Assembly (NCBI RefSeq): GCF_013456555.2
Contig: NZ_CP084883.1
Coordinates: 248,001-312,000, forward strand
Source: Natrinema zhouii
GTDB lineage: Archaea > Halobacteriota > Halobacteria > Halobacteriales > Natrialbaceae
Length of the DNA: 64,000 nt
Direction: 5' to 3'
The notes under the pieces are model-generated. The model ran no database searches and was not told where the DNA came from. It saw only the letters and a program-made list of their open reading frames with translations. Position 1 is the first letter of the stretch, and each line of letters starts with the position of its first letter. The translations under genes were made by a program, and so were the position numbers. Positions 21,635 to 30,071 of this stretch are shown here, one piece after another.

Positions 21635-22017
21635 TCGTCGGCCCCCGTGATGTAGCCCTGCTCTCGAGCGCGTTCGATCGCTTGAGCCTTCACGTCCTCG
21701 TCGTCAAGTTCACCACCGACCAGTCCGCCCATGCCGTGGATGATCCGATTGCCACCGATCGCAACGAGGTCAACCTCGCGCTCGCAGCCGGGTTCGAACC
21801 TGATAGCCGTCCCCGCCGGAATATCCAGCCGCATCCCGTACGCCGACTCGCGATCGAACTCGAGCCCGGGATTCACCTCGAAGAAGTGAAAGTGTGAACC
21901 GACCTGTGCGGGCCGATCGCCGGTGTTCTCGACCGTGACCATCGCCGTCGGTCGTCCCTCGTTTATCGTCACCGGCTCGTCCGCTGGGAGCAACTCGCCC
22001 GGAACGAACTCGCTCAT
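21631..22017 (-). CDS. ureB: Urease beta subunit UreB
   Basis: A 128-residue UreB, starting [21 protein letters not shown]. Family features are [31 protein letters not shown] (with the conserved SHxHFxExN) and [12 protein letters not shown]. It is structural and helps to position the active-site flap of UreC. It is the first structural gene of the operon; a small membrane-protein frame lies 66 bases upstream. It overlaps ureC by four bases. Confidence 0.95.
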
Positions 22018-22082
22018 TCTTCGATCACTCCGGATGCAGTACCGGAGACCGTGATACCATGTGTACTTGTCATTGGTCGCGG

Positions 22083-22241
22083 TCAGTTGTTAGCGGTGTC
22101 TCGCTGCGGACGGATCCAGTCCCGCAGACGATCCGAGATCGAGCCGAGTCCGAGTCCCGCAACGAATGCGAAGAAACTCGGAACGAGTATCCAGAGGAGA
22201 TCGGGATGCTGTGCACCAGTGTGTAACGGAGTTTCAAGCAT
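22083..22241 (-). CDS. Small single-pass membrane protein upstream of ureB
   Basis: A 52-residue frame starting at the ATG at 22241, with an N-terminal [14 protein letters not shown], one hydrophobic helix [19 protein letters not shown] and a basic C-terminal tail [17 protein letters not shown]. It reads in the same direction as the urease operon and sits 66 bases before ureB, so it may be the first gene of the transcript. The composition (one TM, positive-inside tail) looks like a real protein rather than a random frame. Function unknown. Confidence 0.5.
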
Positions 22242-22561
22242 ACGTCTTCCCCATAACGGATTACAGCAGTTAATATCGCGATGACGGCCATACTTGCCAG
22301 TCCGTTCACTATTTTTTGTCTTCTCTAAAGATAGAGCTGAATGTCGAGAGCGAAAAGAATCATTTGAATATGAATTAGGCATATTTATCCCCATCTTGGA
22401 AGAGACGTGCAGGGCACTACTGGCTGTCAGCGACCACTGGCGGAACAACGAGTTCATCGAACGATGATTTGGATCGTCCTCGAACGGACGTGTTCGTCCG
22501 TCATACACCGACCAAACGTCCTATTTGGCTGTAAGAACGGACGGGAATTCCGCCGCTTCCG
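22242..22561. other. AT-rich intergenic region upstream of the urease operon
   Basis: About 320 bases, AT-rich at 22300-22395. It probably holds the urease promoter and the 3' end of the methyltransferase transcript. No gene is recognised. Confidence 0.4.
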
Positions 22562-23185
22562 TCAGCGAGTACGCGTCGTTACCGTCACTCCATCGCCGAG
22601 CGGCAGGAGCGTCGATTCGAACGCCGAACTCTCACGGACGTGTGTGAGATACTCGAGAATCCCTGCAGTGTGTTTCTTCGTCTCTTCGGGCAGCTCGGTC
22701 TCCTGGATATCGACTATCTCGCCGGTGAGTGCAGCGAGGAGCACCTCGAAATCCACGGTATCGTCCGGGGCGTCACGGCCTGCGGACATCGTGTTATCCG
22801 CGATAACCATCCCACCCGGTGGGATTGACTCGCGAATCGCCTCGAACGCATTCACGTACTGGTATTTTTCGATGTCGAGGAGCGCGATCTCAAACGGACC
22901 GTCGTATTGCGACGCGGTTTCGACGGCATCTCCGACCTCGAACGTTGCGAGATCGGCCGCATCGAGACGCTCGAGATACGTCCGTGCACGCTCGAGGTTT
23001 TCCGATGACCCTTCGGTGAGAACGATCTCACCGTCATCGGGAAGCGCTCGCGCGAACCAACACGCCGAATACCCGTATCCCGATCCGAACTCGAAGACTC
23101 GAGTCGCGTCTGTAATTCGTGCGAGTTGGCACAACCAGGCCCCGATGTCCGGGCCAATACTAGCGGAGGTTCTATACAGACCCAA
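22562..23185 (-). CDS. O-methyltransferase-like SAM-dependent methyltransferase, N-terminus probably out of frame
   Basis: A 207-residue class I methyltransferase of the catechol-O-methyltransferase-like type. The SAM motif I is VFEFGSGYGYSACWFARALP, motif II region is EIVLTEGSSENLERA, and IALLDIEKYQY corresponds to the metal-binding Asp region. The only available start is a TTG at 23185. The expected N-terminal helix (read as DVSRLIERVHSEG) sits upstream in another frame at about 23210-23316, starting at the ATG at 23316. A small indel may therefore have split the gene, leaving the catalytic core but no proper start. Confidence 0.7.
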   Translation of the reverse strand: MGLYRTSASIGPDIGAWLCQLARITDATRVFEFGSGYGYSACWFARALPDDGEIVLTEGSSENLERARTYLERLDAADLATFEVGDAVETASQYDGPFEIALLDIEKYQYVNAFEAIRESIPPGGMVIADNTMSAGRDAPDDTVDFEVLLAALTGEIVDIQETELPEETKKHTAGILEYLTHVRESSAFESTLLPLGDGVTVTTRTR

Positions 23186-23325
23186 TACACACTTCCTATC
23201 AGATTGGTTAAATGTAAAGCGATATGATCACGACCCTCTGAATGAACACGTTCGATTAAACGAGAAACATCATTCTGGACCACTTCGGCAAGGATCCTAA
23301 ATATGAAATTAGCCATCCTATTCGG

Positions 23326-23347
23326 TTAGGCCAACTAGTTAGCCTAA
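23326..23347. repeat. Short inverted repeat TTAGGC/GCCTAA
   Basis: TTAGGC at 23326-23331 and GCCTAA at 23342-23347 form a small dyad. A related pair of TTAGGC units, in direct orientation, is at 32072-32077 and 32098-32103. Possibly an operator or a mobile-element scar; function unknown. Confidence 0.25.
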
Positions 23348-23505
23348 TCAAGCGCGGATCGAGATAGTACACGGCGACCGAGTCAGATACAGTCATCATG
23401 ATGGTTTCAACGGGCTGAATCACTCGAGTAGGGTTCAATCTCAGTGTTGCATCCGCAATTCGGAAAAGATGACTGGAATGTGATTTATGAAAGTGTCATA
23501 GTTCA

Positions 23506-23711
23506 CAGGAAGGGATGAACGCGAAGCTCGGCTTGGAGAGGAAACCGACGAGGAGGCGATCGAGGAACAGTCGGAAGAACGCCCCGACGATGTCCCGACC
23601 AAAGCGACGATCACGATCAAGGAAATCAACGACAACCGGTACTACTACTGGCAGTGGCGAGACGGTGACCAGATCAAGTCTCAGTACAAAAGCCCAGTTA
23701 ATCCAGGTGAC
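23506..23711 (+). pseudogene. Gene fragment cut at the TnpB element
   Basis: The frame beginning after a TAG near 23491 reads as a convincing haloarchaeal protein: an acidic stretch (EETDEEAIEEQSEERPDDVP) followed by TITIKEINDNRYYYWQWRDG and SQYKSPVNPGD. It has no start codon. It runs directly into the hairpin end of the TnpB element and the reading sense is lost there. It is best read as an internal or terminal piece of a small gene interrupted by the insertion. The family is not recognised with certainty. Confidence 0.5.
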
Positions 23712-23716
23712 ATCCT

Positions 23717-23736
23717 CCCCGCCGTAAACGGCGGGG
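23717..23736 (-). repeat. Right-end hairpin of the TnpB element
   Basis: A near-perfect palindrome, CCCCGCCGTTTACGGCGGGG on the minus strand, 33 bases after the tnpB stop. It probably belongs to the element's right end and to the 3' part of an omega RNA transcript. Confidence 0.6.
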
Positions 23737-23768
23737 CTTCCCGTACCGCAGGTGGGATATTTGCCGGT

Positions 23769-25019
23769 CTACGATACGACCTGTTCTCTCATCTTGAACG
23801 TCCCGCTCTCGCGGTCGAACAGGTGTACCGAGGGCTGTGCCACACAGCCGTTACCCCTATCCTCGCCGTGAGGACTCGGAGTTATCTTCTGGCGCATATT
23901 CTCCGCCCCGTTACAATCCGCGTTACCCACCAACTTACACGACGAGCAGACATGCAAGCCACGTTCGACACGATTCGATCTCGTGTCGTCGCCACATCGT
24001 GAACACGTCTTCGAGGTGTCCCACTCGTTCTCTTTCAGTACCTCTACCCCACGTATCTCGCCCTTGTATTCGAGGTACTGGCAGATGCGGTCGAACGCCC
24101 ACGAGTGCAACTTCTTGTTGCCGGTCTTGCCCCAGTCTGACTCTCGCACGTCTTCGGGCCAACTCACCGCGAGTGTGCCAACACCGCGTTCGATACACTC
24201 CGTGATGATGGCGTCCGTGAGAACGTGGTAGAAGTGTGTCTCACGGTCAGCGAGTTTCTGACGTGCCCACATCGACTTTTCCGACGGGCCGTTCTCACCC
24301 TCAGTATCGTACTCTGCCCGCGTGAAGTAGTGCTTGTCCTGTTTGAGTGAGTTGCCGGGATACAGGACATATTCGTCAGGGAACGCGACCGTGGCGATAT
24401 TCTTGATGCCGAGGTCGATACCCGCAACTTCGTCGCCTGCGGAGTCGTTGGTTTCGAGTTCGACTTTGCAGACGAAGTGTATTTCCCACTCGTCGCCGTT
24501 CCAGACGGCCCGAACGTTCTGCACCTTGTTGACTTCCGAGAGGTCAACGTCGGGGCGGGTCTGGTAATCGCAGAGGATGAAGTCCGACCACGACTCTTTG
24601 AGGTTCAACCCCTTGCTGAGTCGGACGCGGTTGTTCTCGGGGTCGTGCTTGAACCCGTCTGCTTTGAACGTGACCGTGCTCTTGGGCCGTTCGTCGCCGT
24701 GTTTGCGGTAGCCGGGCGGATTCGCCTCCTCGTCCTTGTGTCGCAGGTCGAACCACGACTGGAAAGCGTCAGAAAGTTCTTCGATGACTTTCTGACTAGA
24801 TTGCGCGTTCAAGTCTTTCCAGCACGGTTGGTTCTTCATATACGCTTTCAGCACACCTTCGTCTGGGATTTTTCCGGTTGCGTCCCAGATGCGGTCAGCT
24901 GTCCAGCGTGCAACGTTCCAGATGTTCGAGGCGGAATCACCGAGCGAATCGAGGCCATCGCAGACCTGCCGGTGGTTCTGGATGGCACCAACATAGGTGC
25001 GTGTGACCTCAATCGCCAT
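23769..25019 (-). CDS. tnpB: RNA-guided endonuclease TnpB family protein (OrfB)
   Basis: A 416-residue IS200/IS605 OrfB. The RuvC-like catalytic triad is visible: Asp in VAGIDLGIKNIATVAFP, Glu in LAVSWPEDVRES and Asp in GNADCNGAENMR. The zinc finger CSRCGDDTRSNRVERGLHVCSSC lies between the last two, as in the OrfB Zn-ribbon family. TnpB proteins are guide-RNA-directed nucleases that help keep the element in place. All key residues are present, so the protein may be active. Its ATG at 25019 has no near alternative. The gene ends 33 bases from the right-end hairpin. Confidence 0.93.
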   Translation of the reverse strand: MAIEVTRTYVGAIQNHRQVCDGLDSLGDSASNIWNVARWTADRIWDATGKIPDEGVLKAYMKNQPCWKDLNAQSSQKVIEELSDAFQSWFDLRHKDEEANPPGYRKHGDERPKSTVTFKADGFKHDPENNRVRLSKGLNLKESWSDFILCDYQTRPDVDLSEVNKVQNVRAVWNGDEWEIHFVCKVELETNDSAGDEVAGIDLGIKNIATVAFPDEYVLYPGNSLKQDKHYFTRAEYDTEGENGPSEKSMWARQKLADRETHFYHVLTDAIITECIERGVGTLAVSWPEDVRESDWGKTGNKKLHSWAFDRICQYLEYKGEIRGVEVLKENEWDTSKTCSRCGDDTRSNRVERGLHVCSSCKLVGNADCNGAENMRQKITPSPHGEDRGNGCVAQPSVHLFDRESGTFKMREQVVS

Positions 25020-25118
25020 GCATAGAATATGTAAGTAAATCTACTTAATAGTGTGGATTAGCGTGGAATATCCGGCCTACTATCGACGGTGGTTAGTGCT
25101 GGGGTTGTTGGATTCACT

Positions 25119-25136
25119 CCCGCCGTAAACGGCGGG
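25119..25136 (-). repeat. Second copy of the TnpB-element hairpin (putative left end)
   Basis: CCCGCCGTTTACGGCGGG on the minus strand, 100 bases upstream of the tnpB start. It is in the same orientation as the right-end copy, as expected for IS200/605 ends. It could instead be the right end of a lost second element. Confidence 0.5.
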
Positions 25137-25161
25137 ATTCTCTCCTCGTAGACAGATAGAC

Positions 25162-25194
25162 GATAACCGAACTACTGCCCCCTTTTCGGTTATC
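25162..25194. repeat. Inverted repeat GATAACCGA/TCGGTTATC beside the origin boxes
   Basis: GATAACCGA at 25162-25170 and TCGGTTATC at 25186-25194 form a perfect 9-base dyad with a C/T-rich 15-base spacer. It lies 25 bases before the first family A box. It may be part of the origin or of the neighbouring element. Confidence 0.4.
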
Positions 25195-25218
25195 TTTCGA
25201 GCTACGTCGTTTCCAGAG

Positions 25219-25989
25219 ACCCCTCTATCGATGTGTTTGTGTGAGTAGGTCACTTGCATATCAAACGACGAGACGAGCCGGTACTGATAGATCACCGAGT
25301 TCTGCGGACGGACACACCTCTATCGATGTGTGTCTGCATCATCAGTTTCCGTACCGACGAGAGTTCTGTTCGACTCGAGACCGTCTCTCCTGAGAGGGAC
25401 TATCTGGCCTGACGGTGTTCGAAAGAAGCGGAGTGTTGGAGGAACAGAGACACCCCTCTATCGATGTGTTCTCCACAGAGATAGCAGAAGGAAAGAGACG
25501 AGCGGATGAAGGAATCCACAGGATGTACTGGGATTCCGTACAGCTATCCCCTGAAAGCAGCTATTTCGAGACTGTAATCTGATGAGAGAGACGAGAGAAC
25601 ATGACGATCGATAGGTGATAAGAGACGAACGGTCCAGAACACATCGAACACATCGATAGAGGTGTGTGTGAGTGTGTATTCTAGAAAGCTAGAAGAAGAG
25701 AAGAGAAAAGACCGAATTTGCTTCCCGAAACCATGCTTCCAAGCGGCTGTATACCGTAAAACCTCGAGTCACTGCGACTCTACTCCGACTCCCGTTCAAT
25801 CGCACTTGGAGATTACACCCCTCCCTTCGAGCGTTCGAACACATCGATAGAGGGGTGTCTGTCTCCGTGGAACGGTCGACCGCTACACATCGTCATCCGT
25901 TCGTACTAACTCGTTACTTCTTTTTCTCTGTCTAGCAGAATCAGGGCTGTTTGTCCCTCAATAGCAGAAATACAGATCGATAGAGGTGG
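25219..25989. repeat. Family A origin boxes upstream of the first orc1 gene (six copies)
   Basis: Cores on the plus strand are at 25219-25236, 25314-25331 and 25452-25469, and on the minus strand at 25648-25665, 25839-25856 and 25972-25989. The three plus and three minus copies face each other across 25470-25647. The shared core is CTCTATCGATGTGT with a variable A/G/C start. The last copy (25972-25989) carries one change (CAGATCGATAG) and lies 35 bases before the orc1 ATG, where promoter elements should be. The rest of this roughly 870-base stretch holds no supported gene. Confidence 0.85.
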
Positions 25990-26024
25990 GGAACACTTTT
26001 GTTCCCGCCCTGTCTGGACACCGT

Positions 26025-27452
26025 ATGGACGACTTCGAGGCTCCTCGAGATGAGGCGGGGACATCGAGGGATGAAACGTCACGGCAGGCCCCTTCCTCAT
26101 CGGATTCCACTGAGTCCGAGCAGTCTCCCTCCTCGACTGAATCGGATGCGAACAGCGACGTACAATCGATCGAGGATATGTTGCTCGAGTTCGATCAACA
26201 GGAAGGACTCATTCGTGATCGATCACTTCTCGATCCGAATCATATCGTCGAAGAGGATCGAATCGTCGGTCGCGACGAGCAACTCCAGGAAGTCACCAAG
26301 ATGCTCCGTGTTGCCCTCGGCGACAACCGCCCCCCAAACCTCTTTCTCTACGGGCCCTCGGGGACCGGTAAATCGCTTATCACCAAGGCCGTCTGCAAGA
26401 ACATTAGTGCGATCTGTGACACGCGAGATATCCGGTTCGGGACAATTGAGGTCAACTGCCAGGATCTCGACACGCTCGGCGTCGCAGTCTACGAACTGGC
26501 GAGTCGGGCTGCAGACGAAGCTGACGTTGAGGTCGAAGTCCCGAAACACGGCGTCGCGACGAAGGAAAAGTGGGACGAACTCTATCGGATCGTCAACGAG
26601 AACTTCGATTCGGCAGTATTCGTCCTCGACGAACTCGATATGCTCGTCGGTCGACGAGACAAACAAGAGCCGGCGTTCTCCCGACTCCTCTACCAACTGT
26701 CTCGAGCCGGCGCAAATAACGAACTCACTGCACATGTCTCCGTCGTCGCGATCTCTAACGACACGAAGATGATGGAATCCGTGGGCAGTCGAGCCCTGAG
26801 TTCCTTCACACCGGAGGACGTCCACTTCGACGACTACGATGCAAACCAGCTGCAGTCAATTCTTCGTCGCCGTCAGGATGCCTTCTACGAAGACGTTCTC
26901 GACGAGGACGTTATTCCGTTGGCGGCGGCCTTCGCGGCCCAGACCCACGGCGATGCTCGCAAGGCGATCGATCTCATGCGAGTCGCCGGCGAACTCGCAG
27001 AACGTGAAGGAGACGGAGGTGTCGGTGAAGCACACGTACGCGAAGCGCAGGACAAAGTCGAAAAGAATCGTGTCCTCGAGGTTGTCCGCGGCATCAGCAC
27101 GCAGAAGAAACTCTGCCTCTACGCGACGGCGGCTGTCGCTGCTGAGACGAACGACGAATCCGCGCGCAGTACGACCGGATACCGGGTCTATCAGTTCCTC
27201 ACGGACGTGATCGATGCCGATCAGTACCACCAGGAGACCTACGTCAACAAGATGAAGGAGATGACGACGTATTCGCTCGTTGACTTCGAACGCCGGAGCC
27301 ACGGCCCGAGCTCGGGAATGTTCCTCGAGTTCCAGTTCGGCGAGCGCCCCGAGACGATTCTCGAAACGCTTCGTGAAGATTCGCGTATCGATATGGTTTC
27401 CGCTGACGAGGTGAAGAGCGTCGTCAAAGCACAGATCCGAAACGAAACGTAG
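26025..27452 (+). CDS. Orc1/Cdc6 replication initiator A
   Basis: A 475-residue AAA+ initiator, starting MDDFEAPRDEAGTS at 26025 (a GTG 39 bases upstream is less likely). After a Ser/Glu-rich, probably disordered, 55-residue N-terminus come the domains: EEDRIVGRDEQLQEVTKML, Walker A GPSGTGKSLITKAV, Walker B VFVLDELDMLVGRR, sensor 1 VVAISNDTKM, and sensor 2 THGDARKAIDLMRVAGE. A C-terminal winged helix follows (TTGYRVYQFLTDVI to the end). In archaea these proteins bind origin boxes and load MCM. Family A boxes flank the gene on both sides, so it is probably their binding protein. Confidence 0.93.
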   Translation: MDDFEAPRDEAGTSRDETSRQAPSSSDSTESEQSPSSTESDANSDVQSIEDMLLEFDQQEGLIRDRSLLDPNHIVEEDRIVGRDEQLQEVTKMLRVALGDNRPPNLFLYGPSGTGKSLITKAVCKNISAICDTRDIRFGTIEVNCQDLDTLGVAVYELASRAADEADVEVEVPKHGVATKEKWDELYRIVNENFDSAVFVLDELDMLVGRRDKQEPAFSRLLYQLSRAGANNELTAHVSVVAISNDTKMMESVGSRALSSFTPEDVHFDDYDANQLQSILRRRQDAFYEDVLDEDVIPLAAAFAAQTHGDARKAIDLMRVAGELAEREGDGGVGEAHVREAQDKVEKNRVLEVVRGISTQKKLCLYATAAVAAETNDESARSTTGYRVYQFLTDVIDADQYHQETYVNKMKEMTTYSLVDFERRSHGPSSGMFLEFQFGERPETILETLREDSRIDMVSADEVKSVVKAQIRNET

Positions 27453-27470
27453 CCGCTCTCTGCCCGTCGG

Positions 27471-27727
27471 TCCCCTCTATCGATGTGTATCTTTACTTTG
27501 CTATACAGCTGCGGATTTGGCTGGAGAGATTCTCCAGTCTTCCCCTCTACCACACACCTCTATCGATGTGTGATATGGTCCAAGAGCTGCTGAAAAGCGG
27601 AAAGACAGACTTGTATGATTACATGTGGTGCGAAAATAATATCCTTATTTCACCTAACAAGCGGAGTCTATCGTCCATCGCTGTCTTTTCAATTATTGAG
27701 AGAGCAGACACACCTCTATCGATGTGT
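27471..27727 (+). repeat. Family A origin boxes downstream of the first orc1 gene (three copies)
   Basis: Direct copies at 27471-27488, 27554-27571 and 27710-27727, all plus strand, starting 19 bases after the orc1 stop. Copies two and three match ACACCTCTATCGATGTGT exactly; the first begins TCCC. The surrounding AT-rich DNA to 27902 has no convincing gene. Confidence 0.85.
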
Positions 27728-27802
27728 TTTCGCTCTGTGCAGGAGTGAATTCGTTAGACACCTCGAAATTGGAGTCACTGCTATCAAGAGCAAAATGCAA
27801 CC

Positions 27803-27825
27803 AGAACAACGGACACAGTGGTGTC
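27803..27825 (-). repeat. Family B origin box downstream of the second orc1 gene
   Basis: Read on the minus strand it is GACACCACTGTGTCCGTTGT followed by TCT. It lies between the last family A box and the 3' end of the second orc1 gene. It is the only family B copy on that side. Confidence 0.75.
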
Positions 27826-27902
27826 GGTCAGAAACAGAACGCGGCAAGGGAGAAGCTGAGAAGACTGTCAGTAACTACTATAGAGAAGAATCGGGAGGGA
27901 AA

Positions 27903-29162
27903 TTACTGGAATTTAGCTAACGACGTGTTCTCATCGGTCGTGTCCTCATCAATCAGATGACCCTGAATAGAATCGTGGACACCAACGTCGCGAAGGATAT
28001 CATCGAGTGCCGAAAGGATGAGCTCGAGGTCCGTATCGAGTGTATATTCGCGGTATGTGCCGCCGCGTCGACCCTCATTCCGCTCAGTGACCGAGACGAG
28101 TCCGAGCATAGCGAGCTCTGACAGGTGATCGCGCATTCGACGCGGAACGAGCGGATCTCGTCCGGCCCGTTGTGCAAAGTTCGTATAACGGGGACGGACA
28201 TCCCGTGATCGAATAGGGGTTTCGTCCTGGAGGTGGAGTGTGAGCAACGAGTACAGTACCAGATGACCGTGCTGAGTGAGGCCGCTGATTCCCTCTTCAA
28301 TACGGCCACGTTCCAGATCATGGCGGCCTGCTTCCACGTGGCTTTCAGTGACGGTCGTCATCTCTGCTTCTTCTCGAGCGAGATCGCCGGCTTTCATGAG
28401 GAGATCGATCGACTGACGGGCGTCGCCAGCGTCTTTTGCGCCGTAGGCCGCACACAGTGGAATTACCGCATCATCGAGGACGTCTTCGTGAAACGCGACG
28501 TCCGCACGCTGTCGGAGAATTTTCTGGAGATCACCTGCATCGTACGCAGGGAAGTGAATTTCCTGTTCGCAGAGCGAACTCTTCACCTTCGGGGAAAGGT
28601 CGTCACGGAACGAAAAGTCGTTCGAAATGCCGATGATCCCGATCTTTGCTGCAGAGAGATCATTGTTCGCTCGAGCACGGGGAAGTTGATAGAGAATCGA
28701 ATCGTCTTCGACGTGGTCGACTTCGTCGAGGACGATCAGATTAGTGCCGCCGATCTCGTCGAGTTCGTCCCAAAGCATTTCGTATACTGTCGCCCGCGGA
28801 TAGCCAGTGGTACTGATCTGGTTCGTCTCGTCTCTGAGTTCATTGACCAGACGTGTCGCGATTTGGTACGAGGACGTAAGGCCGTCACAGTTGAGAAACG
28901 TGAGATAGAGATCGATATCGTCGTACTGAGTGGCGTCTCGCTCGAGATGCGAAAGAAGATATCTGGTGGCAGCGGTTTTTCCGACACCGGTTTTCCCGTA
29001 GAGGAAGACGTTGTTCGGTTGTTCACCGTTGATCACAGGCTGTAGTGCAGCCTGGTACATCTGTATTTCTTCGTCACGCCCAATGAGTTGCTCGGGCTGG
29101 TAATCTTCCCGTAGCGCGTCTCGGTTTCTGTATATATCAGTGTCACGTTCGAACAGACTCAT
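27903..29162 (-). CDS. Orc1/Cdc6 replication initiator B
   Basis: A 419-residue Orc1/Cdc6 paralogue, only distantly similar to initiator A. It starts MSLFERDTDIYRNRDALREDYQPEQLIGRDEEI at 29162, the usual beginning for haloarchaeal members. Walker A is YGKTGVGKTAATRYLL, Walker B is LIVLDEVDHVED, sensor 1 IIGISNDFSFRDDL, sensor 2 KDAGDARQSIDLLMKAGDL. The winged-helix domain follows (LVLYSLLTLH to TERNEGRRGGTYREYTL). Family B boxes flank it on both sides, and one sits beside its TATA-like box, suggesting it binds family B DNA and may control its own expression. Confidence 0.93.
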   Translation of the reverse strand: MSLFERDTDIYRNRDALREDYQPEQLIGRDEEIQMYQAALQPVINGEQPNNVFLYGKTGVGKTAATRYLLSHLERDATQYDDIDLYLTFLNCDGLTSSYQIATRLVNELRDETNQISTTGYPRATVYEMLWDELDEIGGTNLIVLDEVDHVEDDSILYQLPRARANNDLSAAKIGIIGISNDFSFRDDLSPKVKSSLCEQEIHFPAYDAGDLQKILRQRADVAFHEDVLDDAVIPLCAAYGAKDAGDARQSIDLLMKAGDLAREEAEMTTVTESHVEAGRHDLERGRIEEGISGLTQHGHLVLYSLLTLHLQDETPIRSRDVRPRYTNFAQRAGRDPLVPRRMRDHLSELAMLGLVSVTERNEGRRGGTYREYTLDTDLELILSALDDILRDVGVHDSIQGHLIDEDTTDENTSLAKFQ

Positions 29163-29193
29163 TCGAGCTCACTCCGTGACAATATAGACGCAT

Positions 29194-29205
29194 AGTTTAT
29201 AAAAC
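29194..29205 (-). promoter_or_regulatory. TATA-like box of initiator B, next to a family B box
   Basis: GTTTTATAAACT on the minus strand, about 37 bases before the ATG at 29162. A degenerate family B box (29206-29232) begins immediately upstream, so initiator binding could block or modulate transcription. Confidence 0.45.
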
Positions 29206-29934
29206 CACCTTGTCCGGAGTGTCCGCTGTTCTCTATCTTTAAATAAAACACCGAAACACACCCCCTCCACTATGTCCGCAGTAGTCCCGATGATGGAAAG
29301 AGTAGTGGAGGAGAGTTTTGAATAGCGGAATCTTTAATACAGTAAGATGAGAGCTAGTCCAAATGGCAACTCCAGCTGTTTTATATTCTGCAAATCATGA
29401 TGAAGAATACATCAGTGAGTAGCTCACTAGCTCTTCAGAGAAGAACAGCGGACATAGTGGGGTGGGTGTGTCTTCTCTCAGAAAATATTACTAGGCAGGG
29501 TCGCTAATTCATCTCGATCTTTCAATGCGATCTACCCTATAGTTGCCACTGAAATGATTTACACGCTGATTGCACTCGCTGTCGTGCGATCAGATGCGTA
29601 TTGCCTTCCCGTGGTCACTATAGTCCATGTATTCCATATCTGACTATCATTTTCACGCAGTAACTACTTCGACTAGTAGCACTCACACCACCATGTCCGC
29701 TGTTCGAGGATAGAATTACTACCACAGATACACCACTGTGTCCGCTGTTCTGTGAGGTACTCACCCTCTGGGAGATTGCTCGTTAGAAAGTAGGGTGTTC
29801 ACGAAGAGAACGACGGATGCGGTAGCGTATCGAATCTCGATGCTATTTCCTAACCAATAGTAACCCAGAACCATTAATCGAATCACCGCTGCGGCTGCCG
29901 TTCTTCCTATATTCACACCACCGTGTCCGCTGTT
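29206..29934. repeat. Family B origin boxes upstream of the second orc1 gene (six copies)
   Basis: Plus-strand copies lie at about 29206-29232 (degenerate, with CACCTTGTCCGGAG before TGTCCGCTGTTCT), 29257-29283, 29684-29705, 29731-29751 and 29914-29934. A minus-strand copy is at 29442-29470. The common part is CCACTGTGTCCGCTGTTC. The first two plus copies and the minus copy face each other across AT-rich 29285-29440. The remaining three are direct repeats. I see no gene in 29163-30101. Confidence 0.82.
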
Positions 29935-30071
29935 TTCAACTGAAAGGGAGAATAGCACTGGACGCAGTGGAATGGTTTCCTCACGTTCCTGATTCGACGT
30001 GCTCGGAACAGAGTAGGATTCGATGCGACACTCGCTGTCATCGGTCGCCAGTCCCGGCAGAAATCGGTATG

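Follow-up and report, generated by a model that had tools for sequence, protein, structure and literature searches.

When two origins abut on one replicon, are both of them used, and how is double firing avoided? This question is raised by a locus in a Natrinema genome of 5.3 Mb in five contigs. The window, the whole stretch of 64,000 nucleotides that was analysed, covers positions 248001-312000 of a 465,323-bp contig, C3, and contains two convergent orc1/cdc6 genes with a gap of 450 bp between them. Gene A (26025..27452, forward strand) encodes a plasmid initiator of the PL131/pHLAC01 type with 475 aa and the Walker A motif GPSGTGKS, and gene B (27903..29162, reverse strand) encodes a protein of 419 aa near Cdc6K of pHH400, with the Walker A motif GKTGVGKT. 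The matches to TIGR02928 of NCBIfam are above the curated cut-off, with E values of 1e-126 and 9e-131 for A and B, respectively. Both products are full-length Orc1/Cdc6 proteins with AAA+, lid and C-terminal winged-helix domains (Pfam Cdc6_lid and Cdc6_C), and the Walker A motif is intact in each. They are 30% identical over the full length and 53% identical in the lid, but no more than 20% in the winged helix, which bears out the initial annotation of the pair as distant paralogues. The winged helix, at 20% identity, is the place where differing box specificities would be expected to show.

Unit A, boxes and gene together, spans 25222-27727 and contains nine copies of CCTCTATCGATGTGT, eight of them exact and one with a single mismatch. 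Upstream of the gene, three exact boxes on the forward strand (box 1, 25222..25236; box 2, 25317..25331; box 3, 25455..25469) are followed on the reverse strand by two exact boxes (box 4, 25648..25662; box 5, 25839..25853) and by box 6 (25972..25986), which holds the mismatch and is a candidate autoregulatory site in a promoter-proximal position, 38 bp away from the ATG. Downstream of the gene are three exact boxes on the forward strand (box 7, 27474..27488; box 8, 27557..27571; box 9, 27713..27727), with box 7 as a candidate titration site. At up to three mismatches, 1.9 matches to CCTCTATCGATGTGT were expected in the window, and the observed count was reached in none of 100 shuffles. The whole 5.3-Mb genome holds one further exact CCTCTATCGATGTGT, a lone site at C3:341569; we considered it as a conserved titration site and rejected the idea, as it is without counterpart in the other joined plasmids.

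Unit B (27804-29935) has seven boxes (ACACCACNNTGTCCGCTGTTC) around gene B, one of them degenerate. Box 1 (27804..27815, reverse strand, one mismatch) lies downstream of the gene. On the other side, the exact box 2 (29220..29231, forward strand) is promoter-proximal, in a conserved TGTCCGGAGTGTCCGCTGTTC context with a TATA-like element adjoining, and is faced across 211 bp by the exact box 4 (29443..29454, reverse strand). Box 3 (29273..29284, forward strand; TGTCCGCAGTAG preceded by CCTCCACTA) is the degenerate copy, yet matches the box at the equivalent place in another B locus. Boxes 5 (29694..29705) and 6 (29739..29750) are exact and box 7 (29924..29935) has one mismatch, all on the forward strand. 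At up to one mismatch TGTCCGCTGTTC occurs six times around gene B against 0.41 expected (0 of 100 shuffles), and the longer box ACACCACNRTGTCCGCTGTT has five matches against 0.02 expected. The order along the DNA is A boxes, gene A, three A boxes, one B box, gene B and B boxes, without interleaving. As the initial annotation had it, each gene is bracketed by a family of its own, with nine A and seven B copies, and both families are far above chance.

The two units share a layout: boxes that face each other upstream, one box that adjoins the promoter, and more boxes downstream (three in A, one in B). The facing boxes had been described as lying across AT-rich DNA. The facing arrangement is present in both units, but the enrichment is modest, with 52% AT between the facing boxes of A and 59% in B against a window mean of 41%, and, except near 27601, this DNA does not rank with the stretches of the window that are richest in AT. 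The claim that the families have no obvious sequence in common also stood in part. The consensus of 234 A boxes is ACAC[CA]CCTCTATCGATGTGTT and that of 123 B boxes is ACACCACNRTGTCCGCTGTTCT; the cores are unrelated, and the similarity of the whole motifs is not significant (p=0.62). Both families, however, start with an ACACC-type 5' end (ACAC[CA]CC in A, ACACCAC in B), which is known as the halophile 'G-string' (PMC3528665). The seven-column G-string end alone is not significantly similar between A and B either (p 0.12), and the genome has several further Orc1 loci whose private box families, different again, end in a similar way.

The split between the two families is maintained at other loci. 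In about 24 loci on other plasmids that have gene A only, 5-10 A boxes are present in nearly all, with one divergent locus having 1, and B-like sites number at most one, which is chance level. The 21 loci with gene B only have abundant B boxes and zero A boxes. When 13 genomes were scanned whole, gene A accounted for essentially all A boxes and gene B for nearly all close matches to the B box. Exact CCTCTATCGATGTGT boxes flank the A homologue in Natronomonas PL131 and in Halorubrum pHLAC01, exact TGTCCGCTGTTC with the ACACCAC prefix is common to pHH400, pNG700, pHME505 and the window, and the promoter-proximal TGTCCGGAGTGTCCGCTGTTC arrangement of B box 2 recurs in Haloarcula pHH400, pNG700 and Haloferax pHME505. 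Judged from these sequences, Orc1-A and Orc1-B would each bind only their own boxes.

How often are the two units together? In the samples searched, 19 genomes have both A and B. The two are on separate contigs in 11 of these; 2 have them on a common contig at a distance of 43 kb or 786 kb, and 6 have them within about 3 kb of each other. Halostagnicola larsenii, Natribaculum luteum, Halobellus limi, Haloarcula halophila and Haloarcula sp. CBA1115 each have A on one complete plasmid and B on another, which makes the two types naturally compatible. The adjacent pairs, six in all, belong to Natrinema: the window genome, N. versiforme BOL5-4 (pNVE414), N. versiforme JCM 10478, Natrinema sp. SYSU A 869, G052 and G067. 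We found no published description of the A+B pair in the literature. Two different arrangements occur among the six loci. In G067 the genes are divergent, not convergent, and both box sets are in one intergenic region of 1.8 kb without interleaving; the units thus behave as modules. In Natrinema sp. SYSU A 869 an IS200/IS605 element separates genes A and B. Most other Natrinema genomes have A without an adjacent B, and the close B type (at least 92% identity) is found there only beside A. Clustering of orc1 genes is not rare on plasmids in general: at least 7 of 18 largely complete genomes have a plasmid with two such genes separated by less than about 6 kb. Some of these clusters have private boxes as well. 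Halomontanus rarus has a third private box family 3 kb from A, pNVE414 has a triple cluster because a third unit lies 6 kb from B, and in G071 the neighbour of gene A is a relative of B at 61% identity, with the core shifted to TGTCCAGTGTCT.

These distributions lend good support to the proposal that two replicons were fused, as each unit occurs alone elsewhere with the same boxes, other genomes carry both on separate replicons, and the joined state is confined to six genomes of Natrinema. They equally uphold the description of A and B as two self-contained initiator-origin units. The history after joining is less simple. The joined B genes form one clade (support 90/86). For the joined A genes a single clade is rejected (AU p 0.028 for protein and 0.013 for DNA), and hence the history is not that of one simple fusion inherited intact. 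A single clean fusion inherited by all six fits B but is contradicted by A (AU p 0.013-0.028); what is needed is either a fusion that took place early and was followed by several losses of B, or coupling on more than one occasion, or recombination or exchange. A thiamine-pyrophosphate-enzyme gene is on the B side in four of the six joined loci and one 283-aa ParA type is common to four of the six; this is an argument that those replicons, at least, have a shared ancestor. Beside A in the A-only Natrinema genomes, no closely matching B remnant was found as a scar of loss; one of these genomes (G076) has a B-family fragment covering residues 70-140 at 59% identity, and G071 has the different B relative (61%) noted above. 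A pair of partition systems was also considered as a scar of the fusion and set aside, as a single ParA was found on C3; the partition module of the second parent is thus not visible. At dS values of 0.2-1.3, comparison of the joined loci gives a dN/dS of 0.040-0.076 in gene A and of 0.026-0.046 in gene B. Both genes have been under strong purifying selection since joining, and neither unit resembles a decaying relic.

Taken together, we read the locus as the joined replication region of a multi-replicon megaplasmid, derived from two compatible replicator-initiator units, with a probability of about 0.8. A and B would be different, naturally mobile origins linked to orc1, each of which runs plasmids of its own in other haloarchaea. 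The units are found apart on compatible plasmids (the 11 genomes with separate contigs) and together on one replicon (the 6 joined loci), which is one mark of multi-replicon plasmids, and the fact that both were kept under selection after joining suggests an archaeal counterpart of such plasmids in bacteria.

Then, how might such a locus work? We infer the following scheme for the specificity of binding, the firing of the origins, autoregulation, titration and the way in which the units were fused. Each Orc1 would recognise its own boxes alone, by way of the winged helix, while a part of the protein that is more conserved probably reads the common G-string end. Upstream of each gene, the boxes that face each other (25455, 25648 and 25839 in A; 29220 and 29443 in B) would constitute the origin, where the DNA is opened and MCM is loaded. 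From the promoter-proximal box each Orc1 may repress its own gene, and the downstream boxes, three in A and one in B, may titrate the initiator and damp initiation as in Haloarcula hispanica oriC2. With no cross-talk between them, the units would be compatible as separate plasmids and could therefore be joined; we envisage that they started as such plasmids, were joined in an ancestor within Natrinema and were both retained. Over the full 465 kb of the replicon, neither GC skew (p 0.67) nor AT skew has a significant turning point by which an active origin could be located.

The A origin has a further property. Its most conserved part is a stretch of 75 bp (25637..25711) that consists of one box, box 4, and a purine-rich stretch and occurs in either orientation in relatives. 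The segment between the facing boxes 3 and 5, at 25455 and 25839, which form its outer arms (37 nt), is likewise found in either orientation across A loci. Relative to the window the core is inverted in 13 of the 29 tree loci with a detectable core, which requires no fewer than five flips along the A tree. G075 and G072 differ by an inverted block of 453 bp that ends in the boxes and has colinear flanks; the A core also has opposite orientations in the two N. versiforme strains. When B origins were compared for core inversion, the matches were short. Recombination between inverted initiator boxes would be the simplest cause of the inversion, and a core in either orientation implies that the A origin tolerates both. 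One may speculate, rather doubtfully, that the Natrinema megaplasmids are dual-initiator replicons in which both abutting, non-cross-reacting origins are active and selectively maintained and the A core flips as a switchable element through recombination at the initiator boxes.

The rival that deserves most attention is that one unit fires normally while the other is a dormant or backup origin, kept but silent; a backup origin was also suggested in the initial annotation. We regard this as a real possibility, though not as the more probable one. The driver would be A, since plasmids with A alone are common in Natrinema and this B type was never found there without A. A single active origin per replicon is enough in H. 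hispanica, and dormant haloarchaeal origins are known (PMC3936714, PMC4595724); on the other hand, the chromosome and the minichromosome of H. hispanica each have two active origins (PMC3936714). The dN/dS of B after joining is lower than that of A, and the B boxes, the promoter-proximal tandem box and the facing pair are intact in the joined loci, which speaks against silence of B. A conserved gene nevertheless fits the active and the reserve readings alike, as a dormant, conditionally required origin would also stay conserved.

The boxes adjoin both promoters and are also downstream of both genes, so they could be mainly gene-regulatory or titration sites, with one Orc1 no longer an initiator; an archaeal Orc1 that is a regulator and not an initiator is known (PMC9738581). 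The same box layouts, however, are found on free-standing plasmids and belong to a proven origin in pHH400 (PMC3936714), and we consider this reading improbable. Adjacency and a common protein family would also be produced by local duplication and divergence of a single unit. This is contradicted by the identities, as A and B are 30% identical to each other while, on unrelated plasmids, the identity of A genes to A reaches 87-94% and that of B genes to B 72-94%, and by the unrelated box cores; we give it hardly any weight. An assembly chimera or contamination at the junction might be suspected from the contamination estimate of 6.65% for the assembly, but the pair recurs within a few kb in five other independently sequenced genomes, including the complete plasmids pNVE414 and NZ_CP082247, and an artefact is practically precluded.

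Unit A shows two features of a haloarchaeal orc1/cdc6-linked origin, as does unit B: a full-length Orc1/Cdc6 and facing ORB-like repeats with a terminal G-string. Wu et al. placed origins in one family at an Orc1 identity of at least 80% (PMC3528665). Gene A is 86.7% identical to its homologue of PL131 and 88.4% to that of pHLAC01 over about 90% of the length, and the box CCTCTATCGATGTGT is identical, so that by identity and ORB sequence unit A is an origin of the PL131/pHLAC01 type. In Natronomonas pharaonis PL131 and Halorubrum lacusprofundi pHLAC01, this origin also has boxes that face each other upstream and four more that cluster downstream, and it occurs without B; we found no functional data on it in the literature. 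Gene B is 72.3% identical to Cdc6K of Haloarcula hispanica pHH400, with an identical core box TGTCCGCTGTTC, the same TGTCCGGAGTGTCCGCTGTTC next to the promoter, and boxes on either side of the gene. Unit B has the ORB sequence of the oriP-cdc6K family (pHH400/pNG700), but 72.3% is below 80%, and we therefore call it oriP-like and not a strict member. In pHH400, oriP-cdc6K shows ARS activity, can not be deleted and yields a stable ARS plasmid (PMC3528665, PMC3936714, PMC4441112). Whereas oriP is the sole origin of its plasmid, unit B in the window has a second origin, unrelated to it, joined to its side.

H. hispanica also has replicons with more than one orc1/ORB pair, with oriC1 and oriC2 on the chromosome and oriC6 and oriC7 on the minichromosome (PMC3936714). 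Their descriptions, however, do not portray these pairs as abutting within 5 kb with convergent genes and a common intergenic region. In that species oriC2, oriC6 and oriC7 each depend on their own adjacent cdc6, and the downstream ORB cluster of oriC2 acts as a titration element (PMC3936714). The cognate dependence in H. hispanica, together with the consistent linkage of genes and boxes, suggests that each Orc1 acts on its own origin here. The initial annotation had singled out the one-to-one split between genes and boxes as the standout feature; it is an instance of the linkage-specificity already known for haloarchaeal Orc1/ORB pairs (PMC3528665, PMC3936714). That specificity, several origins per haloarchaeal replicon and the building of extrachromosomal replicons by origin recruitment are established (PMC3528665, PMC3936714, PMC4441112).

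The value of the locus is that it offers a natural test of initiator-origin specificity, with two orthogonal Orc1/box systems about 450 bp apart and the stand-alone halves as controls. It also indicates a possible route to archaeal multi-origin replicons, namely the joining of compatible plasmids. Compatible replicons are likewise joined in one plasmid in the bacterial IncF plasmids (FII/FIA/FIB), in which one replicon is often silent. The IncF initiators have no homology to A or B, and the archaeal side relies on Orc1/ORB chemistry. Initiator-box specificity and multi-origin replicons are already known, and the A+B locus is best described as an archaeal multi-replicon plasmid.

The A origin core, the box-flanked segment of about 400-450 bp between the facing A boxes upstream of the orc1/cdc6 gene A (window 25435-25873), is present in both orientations among relatives. 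Relative to the window it is inverted in 13 of the 29 tree loci, with at least five flips, and two N. versiforme strains differ in its orientation. The locus pairs L033/L027 and L035/L037 served for the orientation comparison. This makes the segment an invertible replication-origin core.

The GC content, mostly 59-69% to the left, falls to 47-57% over the origin region (window 22000-30000), which is consistent with a plasmid-derived module. To the left of the first A box, some 200 bp away, lies a TnpB gene of the IS200/IS605 type (window 23769-25019). Natrinema sp. SYSU A 869 has a TnpA/TnpB element between A and B (L015 7853-9536). The difference in position suggests that the IS200/IS605-type elements inserted later and did not bring about the A-B fusion. 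One exact A box (AACACACTCCTCTATCGATGTGTATCC) lies 65 kb from the origin at C3:341569 (L095:9569), with transposase-like ORFs next to it and a ParA gene 2 kb away; no conserved counterpart of it was found in the other joined plasmids, the Natrinema replicons in which A and B are adjacent.

A different replicon of the same cell encodes a gene A paralogue with 68% identity (C5:95835-98000, L002) and its own variant box, CCCCTATCGATTTGT, in about ten copies. The two would constitute a natural pair of close yet distinguishable initiator-box systems. L016, L177 (the N. versiforme plasmid pNVE414) and L143 (genome G071) contain additional orc1 genes close to one of the two units, A or B, each gene having a private box family of 8-9 copies; G071 carries a B relative (61%) whose core, TGTCCAGTGTCT, is co-shifted.

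Upstream of gene B, tandem overlapping TGTCCGGAGTGTCCGCTGTTC with adjoining TATA-like sequences (window 29195-29231) is probably an autoregulatory operator; the tandem arrangement has equivalents in about 15 B loci and is conserved as far as pHH400, the Haloarcula hispanica megaplasmid with the B-like oriP-cdc6K.
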